A stretch of DNA of 64,000 nt from Arthrobacter sp. H16F315 (GTDB lineage: Bacteria > Actinomycetota > Actinomycetes > Actinomycetales > Micrococcaceae), in the NCBI RefSeq assembly GCF_024124825.1, contig NZ_JAMXSS010000002.1, positions 1,550,001 through 1,614,000 on the forward strand. The letters are read 5' to 3'. A program made the translations under genes and the position numbers. Below, piece after piece: positions 1 to 17,156 of this stretch. The notes below the pieces were generated by a model. The model searched no databases. It worked only from the letters and a program-made list of their open reading frames with translations, and had not been told where the DNA came from. Position 1 is the stretch's first letter. Every line of letters begins with the position of its first letter.

Positions 1-145
1 CGGCGGCTCCGGTGATGCCGGCGCGCAGGTTGAGCCCGATCAGCACAATCGCGATGACTCCGGCGATCGCCACGCCGCGCGGTGAGCGCACGACGGCGGG
101 AGGTGCTGTCTCGGGAAGGGCGGACGACGCCGTGCTGCTAGCCAT
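1..145 (-). CDS. MFS transporter, N-terminal part only (runs off the window)
   Basis: The ATG at 145 opens a frame that runs off the left edge, so only about 48 residues are visible. They are a short Ser/Ala/Pro-rich cytoplasmic leader followed by a hydrophobic helix (VAIAGVIAIVLIGLNLRAG), matching the first transmembrane segment and the conserved NLR motif of CynX/NimT-like major facilitator transporters. The start overlaps the last 8 nt of the upstream PPTase gene, so the gene is co-transcribed with the NRPS cassette. A role as a second exporter for the NRPS product, or as a nutrient permease that merely shares the transcript, is inference. The family call rests on a single helix and motif. 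Confidence 0.65.
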   Translation of the reverse strand, partial: MASSTASSALPETAPPAVVRSPRGVAIAGVIAIVLIGLNLRAGITGAA

Positions 146-947
146 ACCTAAAGGTTAGACGTTTGACGTTTGGACCTTGCTTTTTAGTGGCGAATATCTC
201 GGCAAGCGGCACGGCCCGGACGGGCAGGTCTGCGGCGGACGCAATGGCGGCGGAGTAACCGTCGGGAGCCGGCACCGGCCGGACCAGGAGGCCATCGACC
301 GCTGGATTCGTGGGGCTCTGCGCACTCAGGTGCCCGCGGGGGCCGGCCGGGGCCAGCCGCAGGCTCGCGGGGTCCACGGCCAAGCCAAGTCCCGCCGCTT
401 TCAGCGCGGCTTCCTTCGCCACCCAGAGCCGGATGCGCCCGGCGTCGGTCAGCTCAGGGCCATCCGCACCGGGATGTTCCTCCGGCGCGACGGCGAACTC
501 GTCGAAGCCGGCGAACACGCGGGCGGGCACCCTTTCGAGGTCCGCTCCGAGGCTGGCGCCGGCCGGACCGGCAGCAGCCATCACCGTTCCGTGGCTGCGG
601 GACATGCTCAATTCGACGCCCTCGATCGAGGGTTTGCCGTGGTCGGTGCTGCCGCAGCCGGCGCACGTCCGCCGGACGGTCAGCCCGGCAGCGTCTTCGG
701 GTTTGAGCCCCAGCCGCCACGCTGCGAGCAGCCGGAACATGGCGTGGGACGCCGGGTAGTCCAGCCGGTCCTCGGCGCGGCTGAACCGGAGCGAGGCCTC
801 GCGTTCCGGTGCCGAGAGGAACGCGCCCAGGCCGCCGAACAAGCCCGCGAACAGTCCCTGGCCGGCCTCTACCGCGGCATCCCTGACGGCGGGTGACGGG
901 ACCACGAGGTAGCCGATCTCGGCGGGCCCGCGCCCGGACGCGATCAT
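138..947 (-). CDS. 4'-phosphopantetheinyl transferase, Sfp type
   Basis: Transfers phosphopantetheine from CoA to the carrier-domain serine of NRPS or PKS proteins. The 269-residue product carries both superfamily signatures: GADLE at residues 134-138 (Mg2+-binding acidic residues) and WVAKEAALK at 175-183. I chose the ATG at 947 because it overlaps the permease stop in an ATGA arrangement, giving tight translational coupling; the frame is open further upstream but that part does not look coding. The context (NRPS, MbtH, exporter) points to activation of the three T domains of the NRPS upstream in the same operon. Seen: motifs and overlap. Inferred: dedicated partner. A broader role on other carrier proteins cannot be excluded. 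Confidence 0.93.
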   Translation of the reverse strand: MIASGRGPAEIGYLVVPSPAVRDAAVEAGQGLFAGLFGGLGAFLSAPEREASLRFSRAEDRLDYPASHAMFRLLAAWRLGLKPEDAAGLTVRRTCAGCGSTDHGKPSIEGVELSMSRSHGTVMAAAGPAGASLGADLERVPARVFAGFDEFAVAPEEHPGADGPELTDAGRIRLWVAKEAALKAAGLGLAVDPASLRLAPAGPRGHLSAQSPTNPAVDGLLVRPVPAPDGYSAAIASAADLPVRAVPLAEIFATKKQGPNVKRLTFRYG

Positions 948-1744
948 CGCTTGCTGATCCGGCGGTACTGGGCGATCGCCAGCGGGGCAAAAACGGCGAT
1001 GATCCCGACGCTGCACAGCACGGAATACAGGACCGCGTTCTCCGCTGGCCAGCCGGTCGGCGTAAGGAATCCAGCCGGTGCCGTGTTGCCGAAGAGCTCC
1101 CGGGCCGCGGTGGCGACGGCGGTGACAGGATTCCATTCGGCAATCACCCGCAGCGGGCCCGGAAGGGAGGTCACGGACACAAAGGCGCCGGACACAAAGG
1201 TGACCGGGAACAGCCAGACAAGCCCGAGGCTTTGGGCGACTTCAACGCTGCGGGCGGTCAGGGCAATGACTGCCCCGATCCAGGAGACGGCAAAGGCAAA
1301 CAGCAGCAACAGGGCCAGGGCCGCCAGTGCGGATGCCGGCCCCGTGGAGATCCGCCAGCCGATGGCTAGACCGCACAGCAGGGTGACGGCGACGGACAGT
1401 ACGCTCGTGGACAGATCCGAGGAGGTGCGGCCCAGGATTACGGCCACGCGGGACATCGGCAGGGAGCGGAAGCGGTCGATCAGCCCGAGCTGGAGATCCT
1501 TGGCCAGGTAGACGGCGGTAAAGGAGGCGTTAAACGTCAGGGTCTGCGCCAGGATGCCGCCGATCAGGTAGCTGCGGTATTGGTCCCCGCCGAGGGTGCC
1601 GCCGAAGACGAAGCCCAGCAGCAGGACGAACATCACCGGCTGCACGATTCCGGTGACCAGCGCTCCGGGCGTGCGCACTACGTTGATCAGGTTGCGCCGG
1701 GCAATGACGGAGCTGTCGCGGGCGGCTGCGGCGATGGCGCTCAT
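944..1744 (-). CDS. ABC-2 type transporter permease (DrrB-like)
   Basis: A 266-residue inner-membrane protein with six predicted hydrophobic segments and the ABC-2 fold typical of drug and polyketide/peptide exporters such as DrrB. The N-terminus (SVIARRNLINVVRTPG) and the GQ/PGL-type central region match the family. It overlaps the ATPase gene upstream by 4 nt (ATGA at 1741-1744) and the PPTase downstream by 4 nt, so the half-transporter pair is translated as a unit. It is probably the membrane half of an exporter for the NRPS product, or a self-protection pump. The substrate is inferred only from context. Confidence 0.92.
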   Translation of the reverse strand: MSAIAAAARDSSVIARRNLINVVRTPGALVTGIVQPVMFVLLLGFVFGGTLGGDQYRSYLIGGILAQTLTFNASFTAVYLAKDLQLGLIDRFRSLPMSRVAVILGRTSSDLSTSVLSVAVTLLCGLAIGWRISTGPASALAALALLLLFAFAVSWIGAVIALTARSVEVAQSLGLVWLFPVTFVSGAFVSVTSLPGPLRVIAEWNPVTAVATAARELFGNTAPAGFLTPTGWPAENAVLYSVLCSVGIIAVFAPLAIAQYRRISKR

Positions 1745-2739
1745 GCTGGCACCTCGACTTTCTCCGGAGTCTGCACGTCCGGCGTCCGGTTTTGCGGGGC
1801 CGGCGCCGCGGCGTGGCCGGTGAGCTGCAGGAAGACGTCGTCCAGGGTGGGGCGGCGCAGCGATGCTTCCTCTACTGGCAGGGCGCGGGCATCAAGTTCG
1901 GAAAGCACCCGGACCAGCAACCGGTGGCCTTCGGGAGCGGCGACGGAAATCCGCAGGTTTTGCGGGTCCAGTTCGGGCCGTGAGTCCGGGCCCGCTGCCT
2001 GCTCCAGCACCCCGGCCGCCGCGGCGAGGTCGGCGGCGTTGCGCATCACGACGTCGATTCGTTCGGATCCGGCGCTTTGTTTCAATTCGGTCGCGGTCCC
2101 CTCCGCGATGACGCGGCCGTGGTTGATGACGGCGATGTGGTCTGCGAGCCGATCGGCCTCCTCGAGGTACTGGGTGGTGAGCAGCACGGTGGTGCCGTCC
2201 GCCACAAGACCGGACACAACGTCCCAGGTATCGAGGCGGCCCCGCGGGTCAAGTCCGGTGGTGGGCTCGTCCAGTACAACGACCTTGGGCCGGGCGACTA
2301 TGGCTCCGGCGAGGTCCAGCCGGCGGCGCATGCCGCCGGAAAACGTCCCGGAGCGTTTGCCTGCGACGTCGGTGAGCCGGAAGCTCTCGAGGAGTTCGTG
2401 TGCCCTGGCCGTAGCGGTCCGGCGGTTCATCCCGTAGAGCCGGCCTACCATGTGCAGGTTTTCGAAGGCGGTTAGTTTCTCGTCCACGGCGGCATACTGG
2501 CCGGACAGGCCCAGGTTCCGCCGCACCAGCTCCGGATGGCTGAGCACCGAGTGGCCGGCGACCCGGGCGTCGCCGCTGTCAGGGGACAACAAGGTGGTGA
2601 GCACCTTGACGGTGGTGGTCTTGCCGGAACCGTTTGGTCCCAGCAGTCCCAGCACCGTTCCTTCGCCTGCCCGCAGCGTGAGCCCGTCCAGGGCCTTGAA
2701 GCTGCCGAAACTCTTGCTGACGTTCTCGACCCGGATCAC
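1741..2739 (-). CDS. ABC transporter ATP-binding protein (DrrA-like)
   Basis: The nucleotide-binding subunit (332 residues) of the exporter. Walker A GPNGSGKT is at residues 34-41, the signature SGGMRRRLDLA near 137-147, and Walker B VVVLDEPTTGLDP near 157-169, followed by the H-loop region (LLTTQYLEEAD). The C-terminal extension after about residue 220 is typical of the daunorubicin-resistance (DrrA) subfamily. It starts inside the stop codon region of mbtH (ATGA at 2736-2739) and ends inside the permease start. It should hydrolyse ATP to drive export through the permease encoded next. The family assignment is firm; the cargo is inferred. Confidence 0.95.
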   Translation of the reverse strand: MIRVENVSKSFGSFKALDGLTLRAGEGTVLGLLGPNGSGKTTTVKVLTTLLSPDSGDARVAGHSVLSHPELVRRNLGLSGQYAAVDEKLTAFENLHMVGRLYGMNRRTATARAHELLESFRLTDVAGKRSGTFSGGMRRRLDLAGAIVARPKVVVLDEPTTGLDPRGRLDTWDVVSGLVADGTTVLLTTQYLEEADRLADHIAVINHGRVIAEGTATELKQSAGSERIDVVMRNAADLAAAAGVLEQAAGPDSRPELDPQNLRISVAAPEGHRLLVRVLSELDARALPVEEASLRRPTLDDVFLQLTGHAAAPAPQNRTPDVQTPEKVEVPA

Positions 2740-2948
2740 TGCGCAGTAGCGAGTTCTGCGACCTTGCGCGGCGCCATATCCGTCCAGGTCCGGGACACGT
2801 AGTCGAGGCAGGCCTCCCGGCTGTCCGGGCCAAACATGGTGACCCAGCCCTGCGGCACTGCCGCGAAAGCCGGCCAGAGGGAGTGCTGCTGGTACTCGTT
2901 CACGAGTACGGAGAACGTTGCGGACTTGTCATCGAATGGATTCGTCAC
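2736..2948 (-). CDS. MbtH family protein
   Basis: A 70-residue protein that binds and activates NRPS adenylation domains. It begins NPFDD and carries the family hallmarks: VLVNEYQQHSLWPAF, VPQGW, and CLDYVSRTWTDMAP near the C-terminus, with the conserved Ser, Leu, Trp and Pro contacts to the A domain. It lies 63 nt downstream of the NRPS and is overlapped by the ATPase gene. Its presence implies that one or more of the three A domains need it for solubility or activity. The short gap to the NRPS holds no obvious terminator, consistent with one transcript. Confidence 0.97.
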   Translation of the reverse strand: MTNPFDDKSATFSVLVNEYQQHSLWPAFAAVPQGWVTMFGPDSREACLDYVSRTWTDMAPRKVAELATAQ

Positions 2949-3011: not shown

Positions 3012-6000
3012 TTATTCGGGTCCGCTGCCCAGTTGGATGGCCAGTGCCGGCATAATTGCGCTGAGAGCCCGGTCACTGAGCAGCTGGGAGTGACGCTCGT
3101 CCACGGCGACATCGGTAATGGTCCCGCTGATGAACGGCTGCCAGGCACCGGTGCCGGGGGTGCCTTCAGGCACCTCGCGGGTGGCCCGGAGGAACAGCAG
3201 GTCGCCGTCGAACACCTCCGGCTGCTCCTGGCGGATCAGCCGCGCCAGCGACGGGAAATTGCCCACCATGGCGTTGACGGAGTCCAACGGGACGCTGCCC
3301 AGCGGGTTGTGGTGTTCGCGCAGGATTTCCTGGGCGCGTTGCCCGTCCAGCCCGGCCTTGTCCTGTTCCCCCAGTTCATAGCCCTGCGCTTCGAGGTAGC
3401 TGGCCCAGAGCGCGTGGCCTGTACCCACCTTGGCGTTGTCCTCCTGGTTGCCGGGGAAGGCATCGAGGATGGCCAGGAAAGCCACCTCCTCGCCGAGTTC
3501 CTGCAGCCGGGTGGCCAGCCGGTGGACGAGGTGGCCGCCGAAGGACCACCCCATCAGATGGTAGGGGCCCGCCGGCTGCACGGAGCGGAGCTTGGCGATG
3601 TAGTCATCGGCCAGTTCGGTCAGGTTTGCTGCCTCGATCGGGTGGGTGCGGCCCGGTTCCATGCCGGGCATCTGGAGTCCGAACAACGGCCGCTCCGGAT
3701 CCAGTTTGCCCAGCATGGAGGCATAGCCCCAGCTGATCCCGGAGGCCGGGTGCACAGCAAACAGCGGCAGCTTGGTTCCGGTGGTGCGCAGCGGAAGCAG
3801 TTGGCGCAGGCTGTCCGCGGCGCTCTCCTGCGCACCCTTGGACGCCTCGCGGAGCAGGCCCTCGACGGTAGGCGCCCGGAACAGCGACTGGACCGTCAAC
3901 TCCGTCCCCAGTGCAGCGTTGACCTTGGCGATGAGCGGCCGGGCCAGGAACGAGTGGCCGCCGAGCTCGAAGAACGATTCGTCCACGCCGGCCCGGTCCA
4001 GGGACAGCACGTCGGCGAAGATCGCCGCGACGGTCTTTTCCCGCGGCGTCCGCGGACCCCGCCCGGCAGTGCGGGCCGTGCTGCCGGGATCCGGCAGCAC
4101 GGCTGTGTCCACCTTGCCGTGCGGGGTCAGCGGCACCTCATCGATCACCACGACGGCGGCGGGAACCATGTAGTCCGGCAGCAGGCCCCGTACGTGGTCG
4201 CGGACCTCCCCGGACAGGGTTCCGGCATCGGGGCCGTCGGCGGAGTCCGGCGCGTGGCCGGGCGCCGCCGGAACGACGTACCCGATCAGGCGCGTGCCGC
4301 CGTCGGTGCCGACGGCACGGACGACGGCGGCGCTGACGCCGGCGGCGCTGCGCAGGGCCTGCTCCACTTCGCCGGGTTCGACCCTGAAGCCGCGGATCTT
4401 CAGCTGGTCATCGTTGCGGCCGGCAAATACCAGCCGGCCGTCGGCGTGCCGGAAGACCAGGTCGCCGGTGCGGTACATTCGTTCGCCGCCGCCGGTGAAG
4501 GGATCCGCAATAAAACGCTCGGCCGTCAGCTCCGGACGGCCGCGGTAGCCGCGGGCCAGTTGGCGGCCGGCGATGTAGAGCTCGCCGGCCGCGCCGGGAA
4601 GGGTGTGCTGCAACCGGTCGTCCAGGACGTAAAGCCGGGTGCCCGCGGTGGGGCTGCCCAGCACCGGTTCGCCGGTCCCGCCAACCCGGGCCAGCACGGT
4701 ATCCACGGTGGCTTCGGTAGGTCCGTAGAGGTTCCAGGCTTGGACGCCACGGTGTGCGGCAACGGTGTTCCACAGTCCGGCGTCGAAGGCCTCCCCGCCG
4801 AGGGCCAGGCTGAAACGTTCCGCCTCGCCGCCGCCGGGGGTGTGCGCCTCGAGCAGCCGGGTGAATTCCGGCTCGGCCAGGAGCTGCCGGAGATAGCCGG
4901 GGGTGGTCTCCCACGCGTTGATGCCATGCGCTGCGAAGTAGGCGGCCAGCTGCTGCGCGTCTCGGCGGGTCTCGTCGCCGATCAGGTGCAGCTCGTGGCC
5001 CGCCACCATCCACAGGATCGGGTCCCAGGAGGCGTCGAAGCCAACGCCCGTGGTGTGTGCGGCCCGGCGGTGTCCGAGGCCGGACAGCAGGGTCTCGCGG
5101 TGCGATCCGAGCAGGGCCGCCAGGGCGCCATGGCTGATCTCGACGCCTTTCGGCCGGCCGGTGGAACCGGAGGTGAAGATCACATAGGCCAGCTCGCGCG
5201 GCTCCGGAGCGGCAAACGCTGCCAGCGCGGCGGCGACGGTGTCCCGGCCAGGTTCCTTCTCCGGTTCCGTCCCTGCCGCCAGGTCTTCCAGGACCAGCAC
5301 CCGGGGCCGGACCGTCAGCCCGGCGAGGATTTGCTCCACCCGGGCGGCCACGCTGCGGCTGGTCAGGATGACCGGCGGGGCAGCGTCCGCGATGATTGCC
5401 GAGGCGCGCTCGTCCGGGTATTCGGTGTCGATCGGGTTGTAGACGGCGCCGGCGGCCAGTACACCGAACATGCCCTCAACCGTTGCCCGGGAGCGGGGGA
5501 GCAGCACGGATACAACGTCGCCGCGGCTGACACCTGTCCCGGCGAGTGCGGCCGCGATCCGGGATGCCGAGGCGGCAAGTCCGGCAAAGCTCAGGGTTCC
5601 ATCGGCCGCGACCACCGCGGCGGCGTCCGGCGTCGCCCGGACCGTGGCGGCGAACGCCGCCAGGATTCCGGGTTCGGGGTCTTCCGCAGACTGATCCGAG
5701 CGGGATCCGGCGGTGACCTTCATCAGGGCGCCAGCTTCCGCAGTCCCGATCAGGCCCAGCAGCGAAACCGGGGTGTCCGGGGAAGCTGCGGCGAGCTCCA
5801 GGAACCGGCCGAAACTGGCGGCCAGGCGCCGGGCCGTGGCGTCCTCAAACATCGCAGCGTTGTAGTCCAGCGTGCCGGCCAGTCCGCCGTTTCCGCCGTC
5901 GGGCCGGAACGTAAAGGAGAGGTCGAATTTCGCCTCGCCCGACCCTGTTTCGGGTTCGGCTTCCACCCGGACTCCGGGCAGTTGCGGAACGGCAGGAGCC

Positions 6001-9000
6001 TCGGTGTCCACGGTGAGCATGGTCTGGAACAGCGGGTGGCGTCCCAGTTCACGGTCCGGGTTGACGGCCTCGACGAGCCGTTCGAAGGGTACGTCGTTAT
6101 GGTCGAAGGCATCCAGGATGCCTTCCCGCGAGCGGCCGAGCATGGTCCGCAGGCTGGGGTCTCCGGCGGCGTCCACGCGAAGCGGCAGGGTGTTGACGAA
6201 GAAGCCGACCAGCTCGCGCAGGGCGGGGTCCGTCCGTCCGGCGGTGGGGGAACCGATCACCAGATCCTCGCCGGCGCCGCTGCGGTGCAGGAAGGCGGCC
6301 AGGGCGGCGTGGAGCGCCATAAACAGGCTGGCGTTCGATGCCGAGGCCAGGGCGTTCAGTGCAGTGACGCTGTCCGGACCGAGCAGGAAGCCCAGCTGCC
6401 GGCCGGGCTGGCGTGACTCGCGGGGCCTGCGGTGGTCCGCCGGCAGCATCAGCTCTGCGGGGATCCCGGCCAGGGTGCGGCGCCAGTGGTCCAGTTTGGC
6501 CGTGAGGGCGCTCCCGTCGAGCTGTTGCCGCTGCCAGTGGGCGTAGTCGGCGTACTGCAGGGGCAGGGGTGCCGGAGCGGCGGCCGGGCCCTGGCCGCGG
6601 GCTGCCGTGTAGGCGGCAGAGAGGTCCCGCGCCAGCGGGGCAAGGGACGCCCCGTCGCTTGCGATGTGGTGCATCACAAGGTGCAGGACCCACTCCGGTG
6701 AGCCGGCTGAGCGGACGGGGATCAACCTCGCCCGCAGCGGCAGCTCGGAGCGGACATCAAAGCCGTGCTCGGCGTCGTCCCGCAGCAGGGCCGGGACTGC
6801 GTCGCGCGCCGCGGGCGGGTTGACGGTCAGGTGCATGCCTGCGCCGTGGGTGGCGTCAGAGGGGTCCAGGACAAGCTGCTCCGGAACTCCGCCGGCCTCC
6901 GGGTAGATGGTCCGGAGGACGTCGTGGCGCCGGAACAGCGCGCCGACGGCGGCGGCCAGTGCCTGTTCGTCGAGTTCACCGGTCAGACGCACCGCCAGGG
7001 AGATGTTGTAGTCGGCCGAGCCCGGATCCAGCTGGTTGAGGAACCACATCCGGGACTGGGCGTACGAGAGCTCCGGCCGGGCATTGCGGGCAGAATCGTT
7101 GTTTGCCAGCCATTCCGTGAGGGAGACCGGCTCAGCGACCGGCTCCCGCTGCCCGGAGCCCGGGGCCGTTGCCGGCGCCGCGGAAGCTTCGGTCCCCGGG
7201 GTGCCGGTCTGCCGGTGCACTGCCGAGAGCAGCCCGGCCGGTGTGGGCTCGTTAAAGAGCATACGCAGCGGCAGTTCGGTGCCAAAGGCGTCGTGGATTC
7301 CGCCCATCATCGAGACGGCGAGCAGGGAGTGTCCGCCCAGGACGAAGAAGTCATCACCCATCGAGACCTCAGCAACGCCCAAGACATCGGCGAAGATCCC
7401 GCACATGGTGCGTTCGTCTGCGGTCTCGGGAGCGGCCCCGGAGCCCGCGCCGGTGCCCGCGGAGGGAGCCGGCAGGGCTTTGCGGTCCAGCTTGCCGTGC
7501 GGCGTCAGGGGAATCGCGGGCAACTGCATAAAGACGGACGGCACCATGTAGTCGGGCAGCTTGCCGGCGGCCAGCTCGCGCAGATCCTCGGCTCCGGCGC
7601 TCCCCGTGTAGTAGGCCACCACACGGTGGGCAGGCTCGCCGTCGGCCACGGCTACGGCGCGGTCAAGCTGCGGGTGGGAGGCCAGCGCGGCCTCAATTTC
7701 GCCGAGTTCGATCCGGAAACCGCGGACCTTGACCTGTTCGTCCGTGCGGGAGAGGAACTCCAGGGAGCCATCCGGTGCCCGGCTGACCAGGTCGCCGGTG
7801 CGGTACATCCGGCTGCCGTCGGCGGCGAAGGGGTTGGCCACAAAACGGGAGGCCGTCTCGGCGGGGCGCCGGTCGTAGCCGCGTGCCATGCCGGGACCGG
7901 CAAGGTACAGCTCGCCCGGCACGCCTGCCGGAGCCAGCGCCAGGTACGGGTCCAGGACAAAGGTGTCCGTATTGGCGATGCCACGGCCGATGGACGGTGA
8001 GCCGCCGCTGATCTCAGCGGTCACCGAGTCCACAGTGAACTCAGTGGGACCGTAGAAGTTATGGGCCGCGACCTCAGGAGTCGAGGCCAGCTGCGTCCAC
8101 AGCTCGGCCGTCACCGCCTCGCCGCCAAGGGCGAGGAGCAGCGGCTGGTCCCGGGCCGGGTCGAGCAGGCCGCTGTGCAGAAGCTGGCCGGCGTAGGACG
8201 GCGTCGTTTCCAGCACGTCGATGCCGTGGCTGCGGCAGTAGCCAGCGAGTGATTCGGCGTCGCTGCGGACCTCGTCAGCCACGATGTGGAGCTCCGCGCC
8301 GGCGATCAGCCACAGCATCGGGTCCCAGGCGGCGTCGAAGCCAAGCCCGGCGATGTGGGCCACGGACACCGTACCGTCCGGACCGGCGGCCTGGAAGCGC
8401 GGTGCGTACAGGGTGCGGTGGTGGTGCCGGTACAGGTTGGCCAGTGCGCCGTGCGGCACGGCGACGCCCTTGGGTCGCCCGGTGGAACCGGAGGTGTAGA
8501 GCACGTAGGCGAGGTCGCCGGCGGCCGGGCGGCGCTGTGCCAGGTCCGCGTCGGTGACCTCGGCACCCGCCGCCAGCAGCGTGCCGACGTCGAGGTGCCG
8601 CGGGCCTTCGGTGCCGCGGTCCGCCGACGGTGCGGCGGAGATAACGACGGCGGGAGCGCCGTCTTCAAGGATCACCCGGATCCGCTCCTGCGGGTAGGAA
8701 AGGTCCACGGGAATGTAGACGGCGCCGGCGGCCAGTACCGCGAGGGCCGCAGTCACAACGTCGGCAGTGCGCGGCAGGGCAACGGCGACCCGGTCGCCGG
8801 GGCCCACGCCGGAGGCCATCAGACCGGCGGCGAGTGCCCGGACCCGGGCATCGAGCCGGGCGAAACTCATGGCGCCGGTGGCGTCCACGAGTGCCGGCGC
8901 GTTCGGAGTCCGTGCCATCGTGGCGCGGAGGGCATCCACGACGGTTTCCGGGCCGAAGTCGCCGGACCCGGGTGCCCCTGCACTCAGGCTGTGTGCCAGG

Positions 9001-12000
9001 GCGAGCTGGTGCTGCTCGGGGGACTGGATCCGCAGCCGGTCCAGTGTGATCCCGGGATCGGCGGCGAACTGCTCGATCACTGCTACGTACCCGGCCACGA
9101 GCTGCTCGACGGTGGACCGGGCGAACAACGCGGGGTTGTAGGCGAGTGAGCCGCGGATGGCGGCGGCCGCGGGCCCGGCTGCCCCGTCCTCATCGGTGGT
9201 AGCTTCCACCAGGTCCAGCAGCAGGTCGAATTTGGCCCCGCCCGGTTCCTGGCTCAGGTCCGCGGTGGCATCGAGCCCGTTCATGTTCAGCCCGGCAGCC
9301 GCAGTGTTCTGCAACGTGAGCATCACCTGGAACAGGGGGTGGCGGTGCTGGGACCGGGCCGGGTTGAGCTCCTCGACCACACGCTCAAAGGGCGCGTCCT
9401 GGTTGGCGTAGGCGTGCAGGTTTGTGTACCTGACACTTTCCACGAGCTCCGCCGCGGTGGGATTTCCGGAGGTGTTGGTCCGCAGCACCAGGGTGTTGAC
9501 AAAGAAGCCCACCAGCTCGTTGAGCTGGGTGTCCGTGCGGCCGGCCACGGGGGTGCCGAGCGGGATGTCCTCTCCCGCGCCGGACTTGGTGAGCAGGGCC
9601 GCGAGCGCGGCCTGCAGCACCATAAAGAGGCTGGCGTTGTGTTCGCGGGCCAGCGCGTTTAGCCGGGCGCTGGTTTCCGGACGGATGGTCAGGGGAACTG
9701 ACGACGCCGGTCCGGCGGCGCTTTGCGCGCCCCGGATGAAGTCGAACGGCAGCCGGAGTTCCTCCGGAGCGCCGCGCAGTTCGCGGGTCCAGAACTCCAG
9801 CTGGCGGGAGATGGCACTCGTCGGGTCAGCTTCGCTGCCCAGTTCGCCGCGCTGCCACAGCGTGTAGTCGGCGTATTGCACCGGCAGCGGTGCCAGTGCG
9901 GTGTCCGCGCCCGAGGCGAGGGCGTTGTAGGCGAGCGAGAGATCCTGCGCGAGCGGGGCCAGGGACCAGCCGTCCGCGGCAATGTGATGCAGTGTGATGG
10001 CCAATACGTGGTGCTCCGGCGCCAGCTGGAACAGCACGGCGCGCAGCGGCAGTTCGTGTGTGACGTCGAAGCCGCGGCGGGTTTCCGCTGCGAGGGCGCC
10101 CGGCAGTCCTTCGGCGCTGCACTGGACGGCCAGCAGTTCCACCGGCCGCTCGCCGTCGGCCAGGATCTGCTGGGCGGGTTCACCGTCGATCAGCGGAAAA
10201 ACCGTCCGCAGTGTTTCGTGGCGTCCGGCCAGCCTGTTGATCGCAGCATAAAGCGCCGGGACGTCCAGGGTGCCTTTGAGGTCCAGCACCACAGGGATGT
10301 TGTAGGCGCCGGACTCCGGATCGAAGCGGTTCAGGAACCACAGCCTGCGCTGGGCGAAGGACAGCGGCACAACGGCCGGGCGGTCGGCGGGCTTGAGCGG
10401 GTGGGCGTTGTTGGCTCCCAACTCAAGGGTGCCGGCGAGGGCAGCCACGGTGGCCTGTTCAAAAACCGTGCGCAGCGCCGGTGCGACCCCGGTCCTGTCC
10501 CGCAGCAAGGCCACGAGCCGGGTAGCCAGCAGCGAGTGGCCGCCGAGTTCAAAAAAGTCGTCGTCCACGCCGACGGCGTCGAGGCCCAGGACCTCCTTAA
10601 AGGCATCGGCTACGATCCGTTCCCGCTCATTGCGTGGCGTCGAGACGGCGGTTTCCTGCTGCGGGGCAGGAAGGGCCCGGGAGTCCAGTTTGCCGTTGGC
10701 GGTCAGCGGGATGTCGGGGATCTGCTGCACGGCGGTGGGCACCATATAGTCCGGCAGCTGCCGGCGGACTGCGTGCCGGAGTCCGGCCGTGTCCAGGGTG
10801 GTTCCGTCCGGTCCGGCCGCGGTGACATAGCCGAGCAGCTGGTCGTAGCCGGCGCGGTTCTTCGTGACGGCGACGGCGGCGTGTTCCACCCCGTCGAGGC
10901 CGCGGAGCGCTTCCTCGATTTCGGCGAGCTCGATCCGGAAACCGCGGATCTTGACCTGGGCGTCCATCCGGCCGCGGAATTCCAGGGTGCCGTCCGGCAG
11001 GCGCCGGACGACGTCGCCGGTCCGGTACATCCGGGAGCCGTCCGGAACGAAAGGGTCGGCGACGAAGCGTTCGGCGCTGAGCCCGGGCTGGTCGAGGTAG
11101 CCGCGGGCCAGGTTTATGCCGGCGACGTAGAGCTCACCGATGGCGTTGACGGGAACCGGGTTCAGGCCGGAGTCCAGGATGTAGTGCCGGCTGTTGGCTA
11201 CGGAGTCACCGAGGGTCGGTTCCGTGCCGGGGGACATCACGGCGGTGAGGGAATCGACAGTCGTCTCCGTGGGGCCGTAGAAGTTGTAGGCCACGAGCCC
11301 TTCCTTCTCGGCGAGGGCGCTCCACAGCGGCGGGTCGACGGCTTCGCCGCCCAGGGCCACCACGGATGGGTGGGCGGCCTGGTCGAACAAGCCCCCGGCC
11401 AGCAGCACCTTGGCGAAGGACGGGGTGGTTTCGATCGAGTCGATGCCGGTGCCGGCCAGGTAGCTGCTGAGGGCTTCGGGGTCCCGGCGCGTCTGGTTGT
11501 CCACCAGATGCAGTTCGTGTCCGGCGATGAGCCAGAGGATGGGGTCCCAGGAGGCGTCAAAGGACAACCCTGCGGTGTGCGCGACCCGCAACTTCCGCCC
11601 CAGCCGCTCTTCTGCGGGGGCGAAGATGCTCTCCCGGTGCGAGGTGTAGAGGTTCAGCAGGGCCAGATGCTCGACGCCGACGCCTTTGGGCCGGCCGGTG
11701 GAACCGGAGGTAAAGATGACGTACGCGAGATCCTGCTGGCCGGCCGGGCACGGAAGCGGTGACGCGTCCTTGCCGTCCAGGCAGGACACCATCAGGGCGG
11801 CATCGAGCACAGTGACGGGTACATCCGTGGCGAGGTCGGCATGCTCGGACGCGTCGCCGGTGAAGGCTCCGGACGTCAGCAGCCGGACCGGCGCGGCATC
11901 TTCGAGCATGCCCTCGACCCGGCCCGCCGGGTAATCCGGGTCCAGCGGCAGGTATGCGGCGCCGGATTTCAGGATCGCCAGGATTGCGACGGGCAGCAGG

Positions 12001-13592
12001 ACGCTGCGGCCCAGCCGGACGGCAACGGTCTGCCCGGGGCCCGCCCCGTGGCTGCTGAGGAACCTGGCCAGCTGGTTCGACCGCGATTCGAGCTCGCCGA
12101 AGGTCAGTTCGCCGTCGGGCGCCACGACGGCGGTCCGGGGGCCGGACTCGCGGGCGCTGAGCCGGAACTCCTCCACTATGGTGTGCCCGGGAAGGTCCGC
12201 GTCCCCGGCCTCCCCGGCCGCCAGCAGCGCACGTTCTTCGGCGGCGGTGGTCACCGACAGTGAGGCCAGAAGCGACTCGGGCTCGGTAGCTACGGCGTCG
12301 AGGAGCCGGACGAAGCGCTCCAGATGCTCCTGCAGTTCCGAAGTGCTGTAGAGCGCCGCGTTGGCTTCGAACTGGACGGTGGGCGCCGCTGTGCCGCGGG
12401 AACCGTCGTCGGGCGCCGAACTGCCGGCCAGGCCGTGGATGATGATGGAGAGGTCATCGATGGGGCCGGTGGAGAGGATGTTCATGGTGCCGCGGGACGG
12501 GCCAAAACTGATGTCCTCCAGGACGGGCAGGATATTAACCGAGGGGCCGCGGTAGCCGCTCTGGGCATTCAGGTCCTCGAAGCGTGCGCGCTGGTGGATG
12601 AGGGCGCCGCGCAGGGTGGCGCCCATGGCGCTGACGGTATCCCGCACTGTCGCTCCGGGTTCGACGCCGATCCGGATCGGCAGGATGTTGGAGAGCATGG
12701 ACGGCGTGGATTTCGCCAGTTGGCCGCGGCGGGCGGTCACCGGCAGTGCCACGGAGACCTCGCGTTCGCCGGTGATCCGGTGCAGGTAAAGGGCGGCCGT
12801 GGTGAGGATCTGGGCAGGTGCGGATCCGGTGGCTGAGGCCAGCGTGGCGACGGCCGTGGGCGGCAGCGTCCTGGTGGCGCGGACCAGCGAACTGGCCGTA
12901 CCCGTCGGCCGGCCGGCGAGTCCTGTTGCGGCCGAAGCGTCCTGCAGCTGGTCGTTCCAAAAGCTGCGGTCAGCGTCGGCGGTCGGTGATTCTGCGTAGT
13001 CGCTCTCGGCGGCCAGCAGCTCGGGCAAGGCGCCGAAGGCCCGCGGCCGGTCACGCCCGGTGCCGTTGCCGTCGGAGCCCCCCAGCAGGCCCTGATAAAG
13101 CTCTGCCACGCGCTTGAGCACCAGCACGGCCGAGTAGCCGTCCAGCATCAGGTGGTGTACGCGCTGGTAGAAGAAGTGCCGCTGGTCGGAAATCCTGATC
13201 AGTTCGGTGTGCAGCAGCTCATCGGTGATGACATCGCGGGAGAAGCCCAGGTCCGAGTCCATCAGCATCCGGGCTTGGGCCTCGGGGTCCTTGGCGCCGC
13301 TCAGGTCCGTGACTTCCAGTCCGGCCGGGTTGGACCGCGGCAGCTGGAACGGGCCTGCATGGTCCTCGCCGAAGGCCACATTGAGGGCATCGGTTTCCGC
13401 CACGGCCCGGGCCACGGCCTCGACCAGCACCGGCACCTCAAGCGTTCCCTCAATCTCGACGAACTGCCCGATCTGGTACATCGGATTCTCCGGCGCCAGC
13501 CGCTGCGCGTACCAGATGCCCCGCTGCGCGGGACTCAGATCCAGCCGGCCGCCGGAGGTGTTGGGCTGGGCGTTCAGAGGATTCGGGGACAT
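3012..13592 (-). CDS. three-module nonribosomal peptide synthetase, C-A-T-C-A-T-C-A-T-TE
   Basis: A 3526-residue assembly line. C domains have intact HHxxxDG motifs near residues 148 (HHLMLDG), 1203 (HHIAADG) and 2307 (HHIASDG). A domains lie at about 475-990, 1555-2050 and 2660-3180, each with TSGSTGRPKG, YGPTE, YRTGD and the A10 lysine. T domains (LGGHS) are near 1017, 2087 and 3214. The terminal TE has GWSFGG with its serine near 3350, an LDAFP aspartate and a DERHSQ histidine. No epimerisation or methylation domain is visible. Aligning to GrsA positions gives pocket codes DADEVLFVDK, DADELLFVDK and DADELLLVDK, matching no code I know; Asp at 239 and Glu at 278 hint at basic substrates (inference). 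The first C domain resembles EntF/DhbF-type starters. The start has a GAAGGA ribosome site. The product is unknown; a siderophore is one possibility. Confidence 0.97.
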   Translation of the reverse strand: MSPNPLNAQPNTSGGRLDLSPAQRGIWYAQRLAPENPMYQIGQFVEIEGTLEVPVLVEAVARAVAETDALNVAFGEDHAGPFQLPRSNPAGLEVTDLSGAKDPEAQARMLMDSDLGFSRDVITDELLHTELIRISDQRHFFYQRVHHLMLDGYSAVLVLKRVAELYQGLLGGSDGNGTGRDRPRAFGALPELLAAESDYAESPTADADRSFWNDQLQDASAATGLAGRPTGTASSLVRATRTLPPTAVATLASATGSAPAQILTTAALYLHRITGEREVSVALPVTARRGQLAKSTPSMLSNILPIRIGVEPGATVRDTVSAMGATLRGALIHQRARFEDLNAQSGYRGPSVNILPVLEDISFGPSRGTMNILSTGPIDDLSIIIHGLAGSSAPDDGSRGTAAPTVQFEANAALYSTSELQEHLERFVRLLDAVATEPESLLASLSVTTAAEERALLAAGEAGDADLPGHTIVEEFRLSARESGPRTAVVAPDGELTFGELESRSNQLARFLSSHGAGPGQTVAVRLGRSVLLPVAILAILKSGAAYLPLDPDYPAGRVEGMLEDAAPVRLLTSGAFTGDASEHADLATDVPVTVLDAALMVSCLDGKDASPLPCPAGQQDLAYVIFTSGSTGRPKGVGVEHLALLNLYTSHRESIFAPAEERLGRKLRVAHTAGLSFDASWDPILWLIAGHELHLVDNQTRRDPEALSSYLAGTGIDSIETTPSFAKVLLAGGLFDQAAHPSVVALGGEAVDPPLWSALAEKEGLVAYNFYGPTETTVDSLTAVMSPGTEPTLGDSVANSRHYILDSGLNPVPVNAIGELYVAGINLARGYLDQPGLSAERFVADPFVPDGSRMYRTGDVVRRLPDGTLEFRGRMDAQVKIRGFRIELAEIEEALRGLDGVEHAAVAVTKNRAGYDQLLGYVTAAGPDGTTLDTAGLRHAVRRQLPDYMVPTAVQQIPDIPLTANGKLDSRALPAPQQETAVSTPRNERERIVADAFKEVLGLDAVGVDDDFFELGGHSLLATRLVALLRDRTGVAPALRTVFEQATVAALAGTLELGANNAHPLKPADRPAVVPLSFAQRRLWFLNRFDPESGAYNIPVVLDLKGTLDVPALYAAINRLAGRHETLRTVFPLIDGEPAQQILADGERPVELLAVQCSAEGLPGALAAETRRGFDVTHELPLRAVLFQLAPEHHVLAITLHHIAADGWSLAPLAQDLSLAYNALASGADTALAPLPVQYADYTLWQRGELGSEADPTSAISRQLEFWTRELRGAPEELRLPFDFIRGAQSAAGPASSVPLTIRPETSARLNALAREHNASLFMVLQAALAALLTKSGAGEDIPLGTPVAGRTDTQLNELVGFFVNTLVLRTNTSGNPTAAELVESVRYTNLHAYANQDAPFERVVEELNPARSQHRHPLFQVMLTLQNTAAAGLNMNGLDATADLSQEPGGAKFDLLLDLVEATTDEDGAAGPAAAAIRGSLAYNPALFARSTVEQLVAGYVAVIEQFAADPGITLDRLRIQSPEQHQLALAHSLSAGAPGSGDFGPETVVDALRATMARTPNAPALVDATGAMSFARLDARVRALAAGLMASGVGPGDRVAVALPRTADVVTAALAVLAAGAVYIPVDLSYPQERIRVILEDGAPAVVISAAPSADRGTEGPRHLDVGTLLAAGAEVTDADLAQRRPAAGDLAYVLYTSGSTGRPKGVAVPHGALANLYRHHHRTLYAPRFQAAGPDGTVSVAHIAGLGFDAAWDPMLWLIAGAELHIVADEVRSDAESLAGYCRSHGIDVLETTPSYAGQLLHSGLLDPARDQPLLLALGGEAVTAELWTQLASTPEVAAHNFYGPTEFTVDSVTAEISGGSPSIGRGIANTDTFVLDPYLALAPAGVPGELYLAGPGMARGYDRRPAETASRFVANPFAADGSRMYRTGDLVSRAPDGSLEFLSRTDEQVKVRGFRIELGEIEAALASHPQLDRAVAVADGEPAHRVVAYYTGSAGAEDLRELAAGKLPDYMVPSVFMQLPAIPLTPHGKLDRKALPAPSAGTGAGSGAAPETADERTMCGIFADVLGVAEVSMGDDFFVLGGHSLLAVSMMGGIHDAFGTELPLRMLFNEPTPAGLLSAVHRQTGTPGTEASAAPATAPGSGQREPVAEPVSLTEWLANNDSARNARPELSYAQSRMWFLNQLDPGSADYNISLAVRLTGELDEQALAAAVGALFRRHDVLRTIYPEAGGVPEQLVLDPSDATHGAGMHLTVNPPAARDAVPALLRDDAEHGFDVRSELPLRARLIPVRSAGSPEWVLHLVMHHIASDGASLAPLARDLSAAYTAARGQGPAAAPAPLPLQYADYAHWQRQQLDGSALTAKLDHWRRTLAGIPAELMLPADHRRPRESRQPGRQLGFLLGPDSVTALNALASASNASLFMALHAALAAFLHRSGAGEDLVIGSPTAGRTDPALRELVGFFVNTLPLRVDAAGDPSLRTMLGRSREGILDAFDHNDVPFERLVEAVNPDRELGRHPLFQTMLTVDTEAPAVPQLPGVRVEAEPETGSGEAKFDLSFTFRPDGGNGGLAGTLDYNAAMFEDATARRLAASFGRFLELAAASPDTPVSLLGLIGTAEAGALMKVTAGSRSDQSAEDPEPGILAAFAATVRATPDAAAVVAADGTLSFAGLAASASRIAAALAGTGVSRGDVVSVLLPRSRATVEGMFGVLAAGAVYNPIDTEYPDERASAIIADAAPPVILTSRSVAARVEQILAGLTVRPRVLVLEDLAAGTEPEKEPGRDTVAAALAAFAAPEPRELAYVIFTSGSTGRPKGVEISHGALAALLGSHRETLLSGLGHRRAAHTTGVGFDASWDPILWMVAGHELHLIGDETRRDAQQLAAYFAAHGINAWETTPGYLRQLLAEPEFTRLLEAHTPGGGEAERFSLALGGEAFDAGLWNTVAAHRGVQAWNLYGPTEATVDTVLARVGGTGEPVLGSPTAGTRLYVLDDRLQHTLPGAAGELYIAGRQLARGYRGRPELTAERFIADPFTGGGERMYRTGDLVFRHADGRLVFAGRNDDQLKIRGFRVEPGEVEQALRSAAGVSAAVVRAVGTDGGTRLIGYVVPAAPGHAPDSADGPDAGTLSGEVRDHVRGLLPDYMVPAAVVVIDEVPLTPHGKVDTAVLPDPGSTARTAGRGPRTPREKTVAAIFADVLSLDRAGVDESFFELGGHSFLARPLIAKVNAALGTELTVQSLFRAPTVEGLLREASKGAQESAADSLRQLLPLRTTGTKLPLFAVHPASGISWGYASMLGKLDPERPLFGLQMPGMEPGRTHPIEAANLTELADDYIAKLRSVQPAGPYHLMGWSFGGHLVHRLATRLQELGEEVAFLAILDAFPGNQEDNAKVGTGHALWASYLEAQGYELGEQDKAGLDGQRAQEILREHHNPLGSVPLDSVNAMVGNFPSLARLIRQEQPEVFDGDLLFLRATREVPEGTPGTGAWQPFISGTITDVAVDERHSQLLSDRALSAIMPALAIQLGSGPE

Positions 13593-13668: not shown

Positions 13669-13710
13669 TGACCCCGCCAGGGCGGCCGGACGGCCGGACT
13701 AGCGGGGTCA
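13669..13710 (-). terminator. inverted repeat between the small secreted protein gene and the NRPS
   Basis: A perfect 9-bp inverted repeat (TGACCCCGC at 13669-13677, GCGGGGTCA at 13702-13710) with a 24-nt loop lies just after the stop of the small secreted gene and upstream of the NRPS. No U-tract follows on the minus strand. A second GC hairpin (GCCCGC/GCGGGC, 13644-13658) lies between it and the NRPS start. It could be a weak terminator or attenuator that sets the ratio of the small protein to the giant NRPS. This is inference from structure only. Confidence 0.45.
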
Positions 13711-13718
13711 GGGGAGGT

Positions 13719-13976
13719 TTACTGGAACTGGCCGAACTGGAAAGGTCCGATCACGCCGGTGTTCACCAGGGGGCCGTCCACCAGGGGGCCGTTGATAAGC
13801 CCGCCTTCAAACAGCGGACCGAAGGTGAAGTGGTTGTTCGAGGCCGGGCTGCTGCTCACGGCCGTGGTGTCGGGGGCGGTGGCGGCCTGGGCCGGCATTG
13901 ACGTGACGGCGAAGGCAGAGAATGCCAGTGCTGATCCTGCGGCGATCCGGGTAGCGGTCTTGAGGGTCTTATTCAC
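13719..13976 (-). CDS. small secreted Gly/Pro-rich protein of unknown function
   Basis: Not a family I recognise. From the GTG at 13976 the product is 85 residues; an ATG two codons upstream is possible, but the GGAG ribosome site is 6 nt from the GTG and abuts the ATG. It begins with a basic region, a hydrophobic stretch and an AQA-A signal peptidase site (cleavage near residue 31-32), so it is probably exported. The mature part is a Ser/Thr linker followed by quasi-repeats rich in Gly, Pro, Leu and Phe: FGPLFEGGLI, NGPLVDG, PLVNTG, VIGPFQFGQFQ. There is no cysteine. It is the gene immediately upstream of the NRPS on the same strand, 126 nt away. Relation to the NRPS is unproven. Confidence 0.8.
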   Translation of the reverse strand: MNKTLKTATRIAAGSALAFSAFAVTSMPAQAATAPDTTAVSSSPASNNHFTFGPLFEGGLINGPLVDGPLVNTGVIGPFQFGQFQ

Positions 13977-14011
13977 GTTCATCTCCAGTTAGGTAGCCGT
14001 ACGGTTTCAAC

Positions 14012-14086: not shown

Positions 14087-15529
14087 TTAGCCCGAGTGGC
14101 GGGCGCCCAGGCGCTGCACGGCCAGCGCAAGCCACAGCTGCACCCGGTCCGAGGTCTGAGCCGGGTCGTAGCCGGTGAGTTCGGTGATCTGGGCAAGCCG
14201 GTAGCGGACCGTGTTCCGGTGCAGCGTGAGCTCCTCGGCCACGGCCGCCACCGAGCCGTTGTTGTTCAGGTAGCTCTCGAGCGTGGGCAACAGCTCGGCG
14301 CCGTGGGCGGCATCAAAGCTCCGGAGCGGGTTGAGGGACTCGTTCGCCATGTCCGCCAGCGGCACATCCTCGCTGGCCAGCAGCAGCGAGGTCAGGCTCA
14401 GCCGCTCAGGTTCGTTCACGGGGAGGCCGTGGCTTGCCGCGTCACGGGCCTCGAAATAGCTCCAGCGCAGCCCGTTGGGTTTTGTGTAGGCTCCGCCGAT
14501 CCCGATCGTCGCGTGGATCCCGGCTTCGGCCAGATGATCGCTGAGGCTGCGGGCCAGGGCCCCGGCGCCGGAACCGTCGTCGGGGACCACCGCCACCAGA
14601 TCCTTGCCGACGACGGCACTGACCGACCCTTCCAGCGGCTGCGGCAGGGAGGAGGTGACCAGCTGTTTGGGGTGGGCGGCCGATTCTGCCAGCAGCACAA
14701 CGTTCCTGCGGGTGCTGTTGACGCCGATTCCGGCCAACCGCCGGGTGGCCTCACTGGCCTCCAGGGTCCCGTGGATTACATCCTCGAGGACCTGGCCCGC
14801 CAGCGCGCGCTGGGACTGCCGCTGTTTGACCATGTTGTTGAGCTCGACGCTGATCAGGTTCTGGGCATAGCCCACAATCCCGGAGTCCTCAAACGGCTGC
14901 CGCACCCACAGGGTGCAAGCGTCGCGGCGGCCGGTGGGAATCGGGAAGGATGCCCAGCCTTCGGCGCTGGGCGCCGCGTGACCGGGCTCGCTGCTGTATA
15001 GCTGCGCGGTGAATTGGGTCAGCACGATCTCTGTCCGCAGCATGGATCCGAGGTGCTTGAGCAGTTCGGCGAGGCCGCCGCCGGTGAGCAGGGCGCGGGC
15101 CAGGATCTGGTGCCCGGCAATGAGCCGTTCCAGCTTGGTGAAATGGTCGGCGGACTGGGCATCGGCGACCAGCTTTCCGATCGCAATAAACGGCGTCTCA
15201 TACGGGACCGCCACCACCGGCAGGCCCCACCGGTTGGCTTCGGCGATCAGGGCCGGCGGCACGGCCTCGTGCGTCAGGCCGATCCCAAAGCCGATGCCTA
15301 CCGCCCCGGCGCGCTGGACCTGACGGACGAAGCGGCGCTGTTCCGGGGCGCTTTTGAGGCGCATGCCGGTGGTGAGGACCAGCTCGCCGCCGTTGAGGAA
15401 CCGCTGCGGATCTTCCTGTTCGGTAACGGCCACCCAGGCAATGTCCTGGTGCCAGGTGGTCTCCGCGAGGCCGGCCTTGGCGAGTTTGAGGGACGGAACC
15501 CCCAACAGTGCAGCGAGTGAAATGGCCAT
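14087..15529 (-). CDS. PucR family transcriptional regulator
   Basis: A 480-residue regulator with the PucR layout: an N-terminal purine-catabolism-like domain (LAALLGVPSLKLA, GGELVLTTGM, residues about 1-130), a central GGDEF-like sensory region, and a C-terminal helix-turn-helix (NNNGSVAAVAEELTLHRNTVRYRLAQI, about 425-452), which is the PucR HTH. It is divergent from patD-gabT with a 143-nt shared intergenic region containing a 9-bp direct repeat. By location it probably controls putrescine/GABA catabolism in response to a pathway metabolite. Its family is certain; its effector is inference. Confidence 0.93.
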   Translation of the reverse strand: MAISLAALLGVPSLKLAKAGLAETTWHQDIAWVAVTEQEDPQRFLNGGELVLTTGMRLKSAPEQRRFVRQVQRAGAVGIGFGIGLTHEAVPPALIAEANRWGLPVVAVPYETPFIAIGKLVADAQSADHFTKLERLIAGHQILARALLTGGGLAELLKHLGSMLRTEIVLTQFTAQLYSSEPGHAAPSAEGWASFPIPTGRRDACTLWVRQPFEDSGIVGYAQNLISVELNNMVKQRQSQRALAGQVLEDVIHGTLEASEATRRLAGIGVNSTRRNVVLLAESAAHPKQLVTSSLPQPLEGSVSAVVGKDLVAVVPDDGSGAGALARSLSDHLAEAGIHATIGIGGAYTKPNGLRWSYFEARDAASHGLPVNEPERLSLTSLLLASEDVPLADMANESLNPLRSFDAAHGAELLPTLESYLNNNGSVAAVAEELTLHRNTVRYRLAQITELTGYDPAQTSDRVQLWLALAVQRLGARHSG

Positions 15530-15579
15530 AACTTCAGGATAACCGGGGGCTGGGCAAGCGCACTAAAATCACGCTGGAA

Positions 15580-15610
15580 TGGTGTGCAGGTGACTATTCC
15601 CTGGTGTGCA
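15580..15610 (+). promoter_or_regulatory. direct repeat, candidate PucR binding site
   Basis: TGGTGTGCA occurs twice, at 15580-15588 and 15602-15610, 22 bp apart (about two helical turns), in the intergenic region between the divergent pucR-type gene and patD. A TAGGCT hexamer at 15620-15625 could be the -10 for patD. Placement suggests an operator. The same-face spacing is what a dimeric regulator would use. Not experimentally supported here. Confidence 0.4.
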
Positions 15611-15672
15611 CCGCTGGCATAGGCTCGGAGCAGTCTCATTGGGTCCTTTCAGCGTGAAAGAGGTTGTACACC

Positions 15673-17103
15673 GTGGTTCAAACCTTGCAGAACTTCATCA
15701 ACGGCGAGTTTGTTACCCCTGCCGGAACCGGGGTGCTGGACATCGTCAACCCCACCAACGGGGACGTCGTTGCCATCTCCCCGATTTCGGTCCAGGCCGA
15801 CGTCGACGCCGCGATGACCGCCGCGAAGGATGCCTTTAGGAGCTGGAAGCATGTGACGCCGGGCCAGCGCCAGCTGATGCTGCTTAAGCTCGCTGATGCC
15901 GTCGAGGCCAACAGCGACGAACTCGTCGAAGCCCAGCACCGGAACACCGGACAGGTCCGGTCCCTGATCGCCGCCGAGGAAGTTGCCGCCGGGGCGGACC
16001 AGCTGCGGTTCTTCGCCGGTGCCGCCCGCATTATGGAGGGCAAGTCCGCCGGAGAATACTTCGAGGGCCACACGTCCTACGTGCGGCGCGAACCTATCGG
16101 CGTCGTCGCGCAGGTTGCACCCTGGAACTACCCGTTCCTGATGGCGATCTGGAAAATCGGGCCGGCCCTGGCCGCGGGCAACACCGTGGTGCTCAAGCCC
16201 TCGGACACCACGCCGGAATCCACCCTCGTGCTGGCCCGCCTCGCCGGCGGCATCTTCCCGGCGGGCGTGCTTAACGTTGTGCTGGGCACCGGCGAGACCG
16301 GCGCCCTGATGGTCGAGCACAAGGTCCCCGGCCTGGTCTCGATCACCGGCTCCGTCCGCGCCGGCATCGCGGTCGCGTCCGGTGCCGCGAAGGGCCTCAA
16401 GCGCGCCCACCTGGAACTTGGCGGCAAGGCCCCGGCCATTGTGTTCAAAGACGCCGACCTGAAGAAGAGCGCCGCGGCCATCGCCGAATTTGCGTTCTTC
16501 AACGCCGGCCAGGACTGCACCGCGATCACCCGCGTCCTGGTCCAGGAAGACGTCCACGACGACGTTGTTGCAGCCATGGTCGAACACACCAAGACCCTGC
16601 GCACCGGTTCGCAGAACGATGAAGAGAACTACTTCGGCCCGCTCAACAACGTCAACCATTTCAACGCCGTCACCGCAGTAGTGGACCACCTGCCGGCGAA
16701 CTGCCGGATCGAGACCGGCGGCCACCGGGCGGGTGAGAAGGGATTCTTCTTCGAGCCCACGATCGTCACGGGCGCCAGGCAGAGCGATGACATTGTGCAG
16801 AAGGAAACGTTCGGCCCGGTCATCACGGTGCAGAAGTTCAGCACCGAGGACGAGGCCGTGGAGCTGGCCAACGACGTCGACTACGCCCTCGCCTCCAGCG
16901 TCTGGACAACCGACCACGGCACGGCCATGCGCGTCAGCCGGGACCTTGATTTCGGCGCCGTCTGGATCAACACGCACATCATGCTCACCGCGGAGATGCC
17001 GCACGGCGGCTTCAAGCACTCCGGCTACGGCAAGGACCTCTCCATGTACGGCGTCGAAGACTACACCCGCATCAAGCACGTGATGAGCGCACTCGACGCC
17101 TAA
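15673..17103 (+). CDS. patD: gamma-aminobutyraldehyde dehydrogenase
   Basis: NAD-dependent oxidation of 4-aminobutanal to 4-aminobutyrate in putrescine breakdown. The 476-residue protein is full length for the aldehyde dehydrogenase superfamily, with the general base Glu in LELGGKAP (residue 248) and the catalytic Cys in NAGQDCTA (residue 282). The sequence context around EGHTS, MPHGG and GYGKDLSMYGVEDYT is closer to the E. coli YdcW/PatD group than to GabD. I prefer the GTG at 15673, which has AAAGAGG 9 nt upstream, over the TTG at 15664, which abuts that site. The gabT gene follows after 53 nt. Expression is probably set by the divergent PucR protein. A related semialdehyde dehydrogenase role is the main alternative. 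Confidence 0.9.
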   Translation: MVQTLQNFINGEFVTPAGTGVLDIVNPTNGDVVAISPISVQADVDAAMTAAKDAFRSWKHVTPGQRQLMLLKLADAVEANSDELVEAQHRNTGQVRSLIAAEEVAAGADQLRFFAGAARIMEGKSAGEYFEGHTSYVRREPIGVVAQVAPWNYPFLMAIWKIGPALAAGNTVVLKPSDTTPESTLVLARLAGGIFPAGVLNVVLGTGETGALMVEHKVPGLVSITGSVRAGIAVASGAAKGLKRAHLELGGKAPAIVFKDADLKKSAAAIAEFAFFNAGQDCTAITRVLVQEDVHDDVVAAMVEHTKTLRTGSQNDEENYFGPLNNVNHFNAVTAVVDHLPANCRIETGGHRAGEKGFFFEPTIVTGARQSDDIVQKETFGPVITVQKFSTEDEAVELANDVDYALASSVWTTDHGTAMRVSRDLDFGAVWINTHIMLTAEMPHGGFKHSGYGKDLSMYGVEDYTRIKHVMSALDA

Positions 17104-17156
17104 CGCACCCGCCCGCCCGGCTTAGCCCCCCACTTCACGCTTAGAAAGGCTTTCCC

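Follow-up and report, generated by a model that had tools for sequence, protein, structure and literature searches.

Three near-identical adenylation pockets, apparently suited to a basic residue, in a conserved actinobacterial NRPS with an adjoining secreted-peptide gene

Results

Genes and features of the locus

The window, by which we mean the whole 64,000-nucleotide stretch analyzed here (Arthrobacter sp. H16F315, a soil bacterium, contig NZ_JAMXSS010000002.1, positions 1,550,001 to 1,614,000), contains a large nonribosomal peptide synthetase (NRPS) gene together with the following features.

138..1136, minus strand: phosphopantetheinyl transferase (PPTase) ORF; ACPS match of 26.5 bits, cut-off 25
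944..1744, minus strand: DrrB-type ABC transporter permease; 17/17 loci (in L021 over 64%)
1741..2739, minus strand: DrrA-type ABC transporter ATPase; 17/17 loci (in L021 half length only)
2736..2948, minus strand: MbtH-like protein of 70 aa, no second one being found in the genome; matched in 17/17 loci
3012..13592, minus strand: NRPS, 3526 aa, C-A-T-C-A-T-C-A-T-TE; intact ORF and domain search
3072..3767, minus strand: TE, GWSFGG; nearest solved TEs 7crn and EntF
3849..4034, minus strand: T3 carrier domain
4083..5672, minus strand: A3, pocket DA(D or W)EAGLVDK; alignment
5724..7070, minus strand: C3 condensation domain
7221..7406, minus strand: T2 carrier domain
7458..8957, minus strand: A2, pocket DA(D or W)EAGFVDK; alignment
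9006..10373, minus strand: C2 condensation domain
10428..10613, minus strand: T1 carrier domain
10653..12194, minus strand: A1, pocket DA(D or W)EAGFVDK; alignment and predicted structure
12222..13541, minus strand: C1, starter-type condensation domain (HHLMLDGY); similarity to solved C domains
13669..13710, minus strand: strong stem-loop in the gap that separates the NRPS from the peptide gene, without a T-run; z -2.86 for the 126-nt region
13719..13982, minus strand: gene for a small secreted peptide of 87 aa, immediately upstream of the NRPS

The original prediction of a three-A-domain NRPS ending in a TE was right about the coordinates, the strand and the modules: the domain search found three Condensation, three AMP-binding and three PP-binding domains and one Thioesterase domain. 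With these C, A, T and TE domains and with unbroken catalytic motifs (HHxxxDG and LGGHS three times each, GWSFGG once), the protein is a type I modular NRPS. The genome search, in an assembly that is 95.6% complete, found no condensation domains other than those of this NRPS.

The genes for MbtH, DrrA and DrrB and the PPTase ORF run in the same direction as the NRPS. The PPTase ORF overlaps DrrB, its proper start codon being probably downstream, and it was matched in 16 of the 17 loci compared (L005-L021), the Leucobacter locus (L020) giving no match. The NRPS frame is broken in L019 and L021, where the longest ORFs measure 2097 and 788 aa. An MFS transporter gene (L004:13781-15145, minus strand), a possible second exporter, extends to about position 145 of the window, overlaps the end of the PPTase ORF on the same strand and was matched in 7 of the 17 orthologue loci. 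At positions 14087-18512 of the window lie a PucR-type regulator, an aldehyde dehydrogenase and GabT, which form a GABA-use locus that only some of the relatives have next to the NRPS.

An old and patchily distributed family

The arrangement NRPS-MbtH-DrrA-DrrB recurs in relatives of Arthrobacter, in Leucobacter and in Nocardiopsis, and is an old design. Three A domains in a single ORF (3439 and 3521 aa) were found in two of 100 genomes sampled around that of Actinomadura fibrosa; these are the Nocardiopsis loci (P0136 and P0154), both of which have MbtH, DrrA and DrrB beside the NRPS, with identities of 76/71% for DrrB, 64/63% for DrrA and 62/60% for MbtH. Within the genus of the strain itself, module 1 finds a match at E 1e-100 in 26 of 198 sampled genomes, that of the strain counted, and thus the locus is patchy there.

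A quickly built tree of 80 A domains gathers the 36 members of the trimodular family into a single clade (SH-aLRT 96). The A1 domains of the Arthrobacter-type, Leucobacter and Nocardiopsis proteins group together (99), and the A2 and A3 domains pair less cleanly: those of Leucobacter fall together, beside Arthrobacter A3, and those of Nocardiopsis are scattered. This grouping suggests that the design is older than the split of the three lineages or, alternatively, that it has moved between them. The locus represents a real and conserved NRPS family of a known kind, present in several genera and apparently undescribed.

Three pockets of one kind

Pocket positions were read from MAFFT alignments against a GrsA sequence that served as a ruler. 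The resulting codes are DAWEAGFVDK for A1 and A2, which agree at all ten pocket positions, and DAWEAGLVDK for A3, which deviates only at 322 (Leu for Phe). Hence, the three pockets are even closer to one another than had originally been claimed. The codes read earlier by eye (DADEVLFVDK, DADELLFVDK and DADELLLVDK) need correction at 299/301, which are Ala/Gly and where the earlier reading was shifted by one residue; their Asp at 239 depends on the alignment, and the remaining positions hold. Similarly, of the two acids proposed to line the pocket, Glu278 stands, and 239 is Asp on a structural reading and Trp by automatic alignment. Glu278 and Asp331 are present under either reading of 239.

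This sameness exceeds what chance would provide, since the A domains as wholes are only 44-46% identical and since all codes within a protein are at least 80% alike in 33 of 49 family members, as against none of the 142 fetched non-family NRPSs with at least three readable codes; a family member falls below 80% if two of the nine read positions differ, for example 299 and 322. Across the 147 A domains of these 49 proteins (fetched at 3300-3700 aa and aligned with no pattern imposed on the aligned positions), D235, E278, G301, V330, D331 and K517 are invariant. Position 299 is A in 131, V in 7, L in 5 and I in 4 of them, and position 322 is F in 91, L in 55 and M in one. Among the locus sequences there is one clear departure, the A3 domain of Leucobacter tardus (L020), with the pocket DAIELGLVDK and the loop FDAAIDPLL.

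The residue at position 239

The A4 loop of this NRPS (FDASWDPILWLIAG) is one residue shorter than that of GrsA (FDASVWEMFMALLTG), and consequently the residue assigned to 239 is ambiguous, the outcome depending on where the gap is placed. Trp is obtained by MAFFT against GrsA, with a larger alignment shifting the gap to 236, and also by phmmer against LgrA. It accords with the scabichelin code DAWEGGLVDK as given in an excerpt of PMC7692728. The A domains with a loop of normal length are mostly acidic at 240 (E in 398 and D in 56 of 514), which again favors Trp at 239.

Other observations point to Asp. In an AlphaFold2 model of A1 (mean pLDDT 91.1, 33 sequences), a single unbroken helix covers residues 200-210, D200 being the equivalent of Asp235; the modeled D204 lies at i+4 from D200, as W239 does from D235 in GrsA, which would place Asp at 239. 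The short-loop A domains also align without a gap to A domains of the VKQ type, whose code DAKDxGVVDK we take to be a glutamate code with Lys at 239, and this alignment likewise puts Asp at 239. In the Leucobacter A3 loop, Ile replaces Trp and the Asp is kept, which favors Asp as well.

A probable basic substrate, with ornithine as the best candidate

The nearest published code that we found is that for hydroxyornithine of the scabichelin type, DAWEGGLVDK / DAWEVGLVDK (PMC7692728, seen in excerpt), and the codes of A1-A3 sit one to two residues from DAWEGGLVDK. With so close a precedent, the initial statement that no characterized code matches is not supported. Ornithine-activating A domains have an acid at code position 3 or 4: according to the portion of PMC10522769 available to us, the acid lies at position 4 in the ornithine module of bacitracin and at position 3 in module 3 of coelichelin, and in PosA the acid at position 3 binds the side-chain amine of ornithine. 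E278 supplies such an acid at position 4 in A1-A3 and in all 147 family domains, and on the structural reading A1-A3 have one at position 3 too; the pocket therefore suits a basic substrate whichever reading of 239 is adopted. An acid at either position is no proof of a basic substrate. Nonetheless, E278 and D331, together with the nearness to the excerpted hydroxyornithine code, lend support to the basic side chain that had been proposed, and the pocket shared by A1-A3 supports the idea that one substrate class is used three times.

The assignment to the basic class thus appears reasonably supported by the pocket residues, and each A domain would load the same basic amino acid, with ornithine favored and lysine or arginine possible. 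We consider it rather unlikely that a different basic residue, namely lysine, arginine or diaminobutyrate, takes the place of ornithine. The pocket acids are compatible with any cationic side chain, and in the homopolymer enzymes an Ala at code position 2, such as this pocket has, is associated with lysine and not with ornithine (PMC10522769, same portion); the nearest published code that we found belongs, however, to a C5 ornithine derivative (PMC7692728, in excerpt).

Could the residue be hydroxylated, or the product a siderophore?

The proximity to the hydroxyornithine code (PMC7692728, in excerpt) also raises the question of whether the A domains load N5-hydroxyornithine and yield a tri-hydroxamate siderophore. 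The neighbors of the family clade in the quick tree include scabichelin-like DAWEGGLVD domains, so identified from the codes of the proteins and not from their names, and a strong Lys/Orn N-hydroxylase match was obtained in 15 of the 16 orthologue-holding genomes (split in G016). However, no such enzyme was found in the strain's own genome or in that of Leucobacter; the best match in the former reached 41.7 bits over 119/339 positions and falls in a 421-aa flavoprotein-like ORF, and the genome search found no IucA/IucC gene there either. Moreover, in all five of the 15 matching genomes that were examined, the N-hydroxylase lies among DesA-, DesB-, DesC- and DesD-like genes, which occur together in each stretch viewed (two of the stretches being short), and because of this clustering it probably serves an NRPS-independent siderophore. 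There is no siderophore uptake or release gene among those neighbors of the NRPS that were annotated, and no site resembling the iron-box consensus in the window. An N-hydroxylase gene may have been overlooked, the genome being 95.6% complete, but we regard a tri-hydroxamate product as quite improbable. In G016 (L101), both the DesB- and the DesD-like gene are hit as two fragments, and so is the PF13434 match; these split genes and the broken NRPS frame of the same genome (L021) are attributable to frameshifts or sequencing errors.

A catecholate-type synthetase resembling EntF, DhbF or MxcG, with C1 accepting an aryl acid, is a very improbable alternative. The matches of module 1 to the EntF and MxcG models cover most of each model and the TE resembles that of EntF, but the scores are far below the curated cut-offs (1314.9 of 2400 for EntF, 1306 of 2300 for MxcG). 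The strain's genome has no DHB-AMP ligase over the cut-off (best 187.7 bits vs 723.55), a match was found in only one of ten orthologue genomes (E 1e-120, 596.3 bits, below the cut-off), and EntF scores lower against C1 than do the starter C domains of CDA and 7c1k. As neither an N-hydroxylase nor a DHB-AMP ligase was found in the strain's genome, a plain basic residue, with ornithine as the best guess, is favored over a siderophore.

Initiation and release

The nearest solved relatives of C1 are C1 of CDA (206.6 bits) and 7c1k/7c1h/7c1p (180.5-175.5 bits), which we take to be the starter C domain of RzmA, followed by ObiF1 (146.5 bits), EntF (110.3 bits), 1l5a (87.2 bits) and 8xjz (62.0 bits). 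By sequence similarity, C1 belongs to the N-acylating starter class; hence an acyl cap is likely, which would probably make the product an acylated tripeptide. Among the genes conserved at the locus we saw no acyl ligase, which counts against acylation. For the TE, the nearest solved structures are 7crn (NRPS 4, 147.4 bits) and EntF (99.7 bits). Presumably 7crn is a cyclizing TE, so that the closest relatives of this domain would be cyclizing enzymes, and release by cyclization or oligomerization is accordingly possible.

A secreted-peptide gene and a stem-loop upstream

The 87-aa peptide has an Ala-rich, signal-like N-terminus ending in AQAA and a conserved C-terminus, GGLINGPLVDGPLVNTGVIGPFQFGQFQ (...GPFQFGQFQ). 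A homologue stands at the same place in all 16 loci with upstream DNA (the window, L005, L007-L015 and L017-L021; L006 and L016 start at the NRPS and were left out). Between the window and L005, the changes by codon position number 3, 3 and 12 (39 codons), and since the changes between these near relatives fall mostly on third positions, the ORF behaves as a real gene. The two Nocardiopsis loci also have a small signal-like ORF there, ending in IGNYQIN[NH] as judged by eye; a profile search gave these two ORFs no significant score. Against Pfam and NCBIfam, the window peptide has no match and its homologues gave only matches far below the cut-off. This gene, upstream of the NRPS, is a new element of the locus.

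In the window, the first 75 nt past the peptide's stop codon fold with z -4.24, computed against 200 dinucleotide shuffles. The same region reaches z <= -2 in 14 of 18 loci (the 16 and the two from Nocardiopsis), the loci lacking such a fold being L009 (z +0.37), L012, L014 and L017. Across loci the stem-loop is kept in position and not in sequence, and it may be a means to express the peptide and the NRPS unequally from one transcript.

Discussion

The reading that we prefer, and to which we give about an even chance, is that the locus produces an N-acylated peptide of three basic residues, identical or nearly so, and sends it out of the cell; acyl-Orn-Orn-Orn is the likeliest form. In such a pathway, C1 would attach to the first residue an acyl group supplied by acyl-CoA or ACP, A1, A2 and A3 would each load the same basic amino acid, C2 and C3 would extend the chain, the TE would free or cyclize the product, and DrrAB would export it. 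An undescribed cationic acylated tripeptide is probable because the like basic pockets, the exporter and the secreted peptide recur together across families. The different A3 pocket in Leucobacter is a point against three like residues.

Several known systems resemble this one in part. The hydroxamate NRPSs of the scabichelin/albachelin type have the same short-loop class of A domain and nearly the same pocket code (in the terminal hydroxyornithine module), but they assemble mixed residues; here, in contrast, there are three like pockets, a starter C domain and DrrAB export, and an N-hydroxylase was not found. The EntF/DhbF/MxcG type shares the C-A-T...TE layout, the MbtH partner and a related TE, whereas the present genome has no aryl-acid loading enzyme over the cut-off and its C1 is nearer to acylating starters. 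Four-module NRPSs of Kitasatospora and Streptomyces (P0044, P0046) also have several short-loop A domains, with codes such as DAWELGLVDK; unlike here, the code of module 1 is unrelated and the others are not alike. The Pls/PosA synthetases likewise link repeated units of a single basic residue, but they consist of a single A-T unit with membrane domains and make isopeptide chains (PMC10522769, as excerpted), as opposed to three C/A/T modules and a TE. A homopolymer synthetase of that kind is ruled out for this gene, as C and TE domains are present and the A-T/membrane layout is absent. Elsewhere in the genome (L090, on C2 at about 3343694-3346040), an A-T ORF is followed by an overlapping hexapeptide-repeat ORF, and P0305, named a Pls/PosA-family NRPS of Arthrobacter, has the same domains in one 1305-aa protein.

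Our guess is that the secreted peptide encoded upstream, possibly made more abundant by means of the stem-loop, acts with the NRPS product at the cell surface. An extension of this idea, which we offer tentatively and think doubtful, is a two-part surface system shared across actinobacterial families, in which a secreted G-[QN]-[FY]-Q peptide and an acyl-(basic)3 compound would be encoded on one transcript, produced in unequal amounts and used jointly outside the cell, whether by co-assembly, carriage or joint signaling. We know of no such pairing of a ribosomal peptide with an NRPS product.

If our preferred reading is true, this family of actinobacterial NRPSs would use a uniform code to build short cationic lipopeptides, and it would offer a simple system in which to study how A-domain pockets correspond to basic substrates. 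The same family could also settle how a pocket loop that is one residue shorter is to be read. Finally, the tight linkage of this NRPS to a secreted peptide without a known family makes the two a directly testable gene pair.
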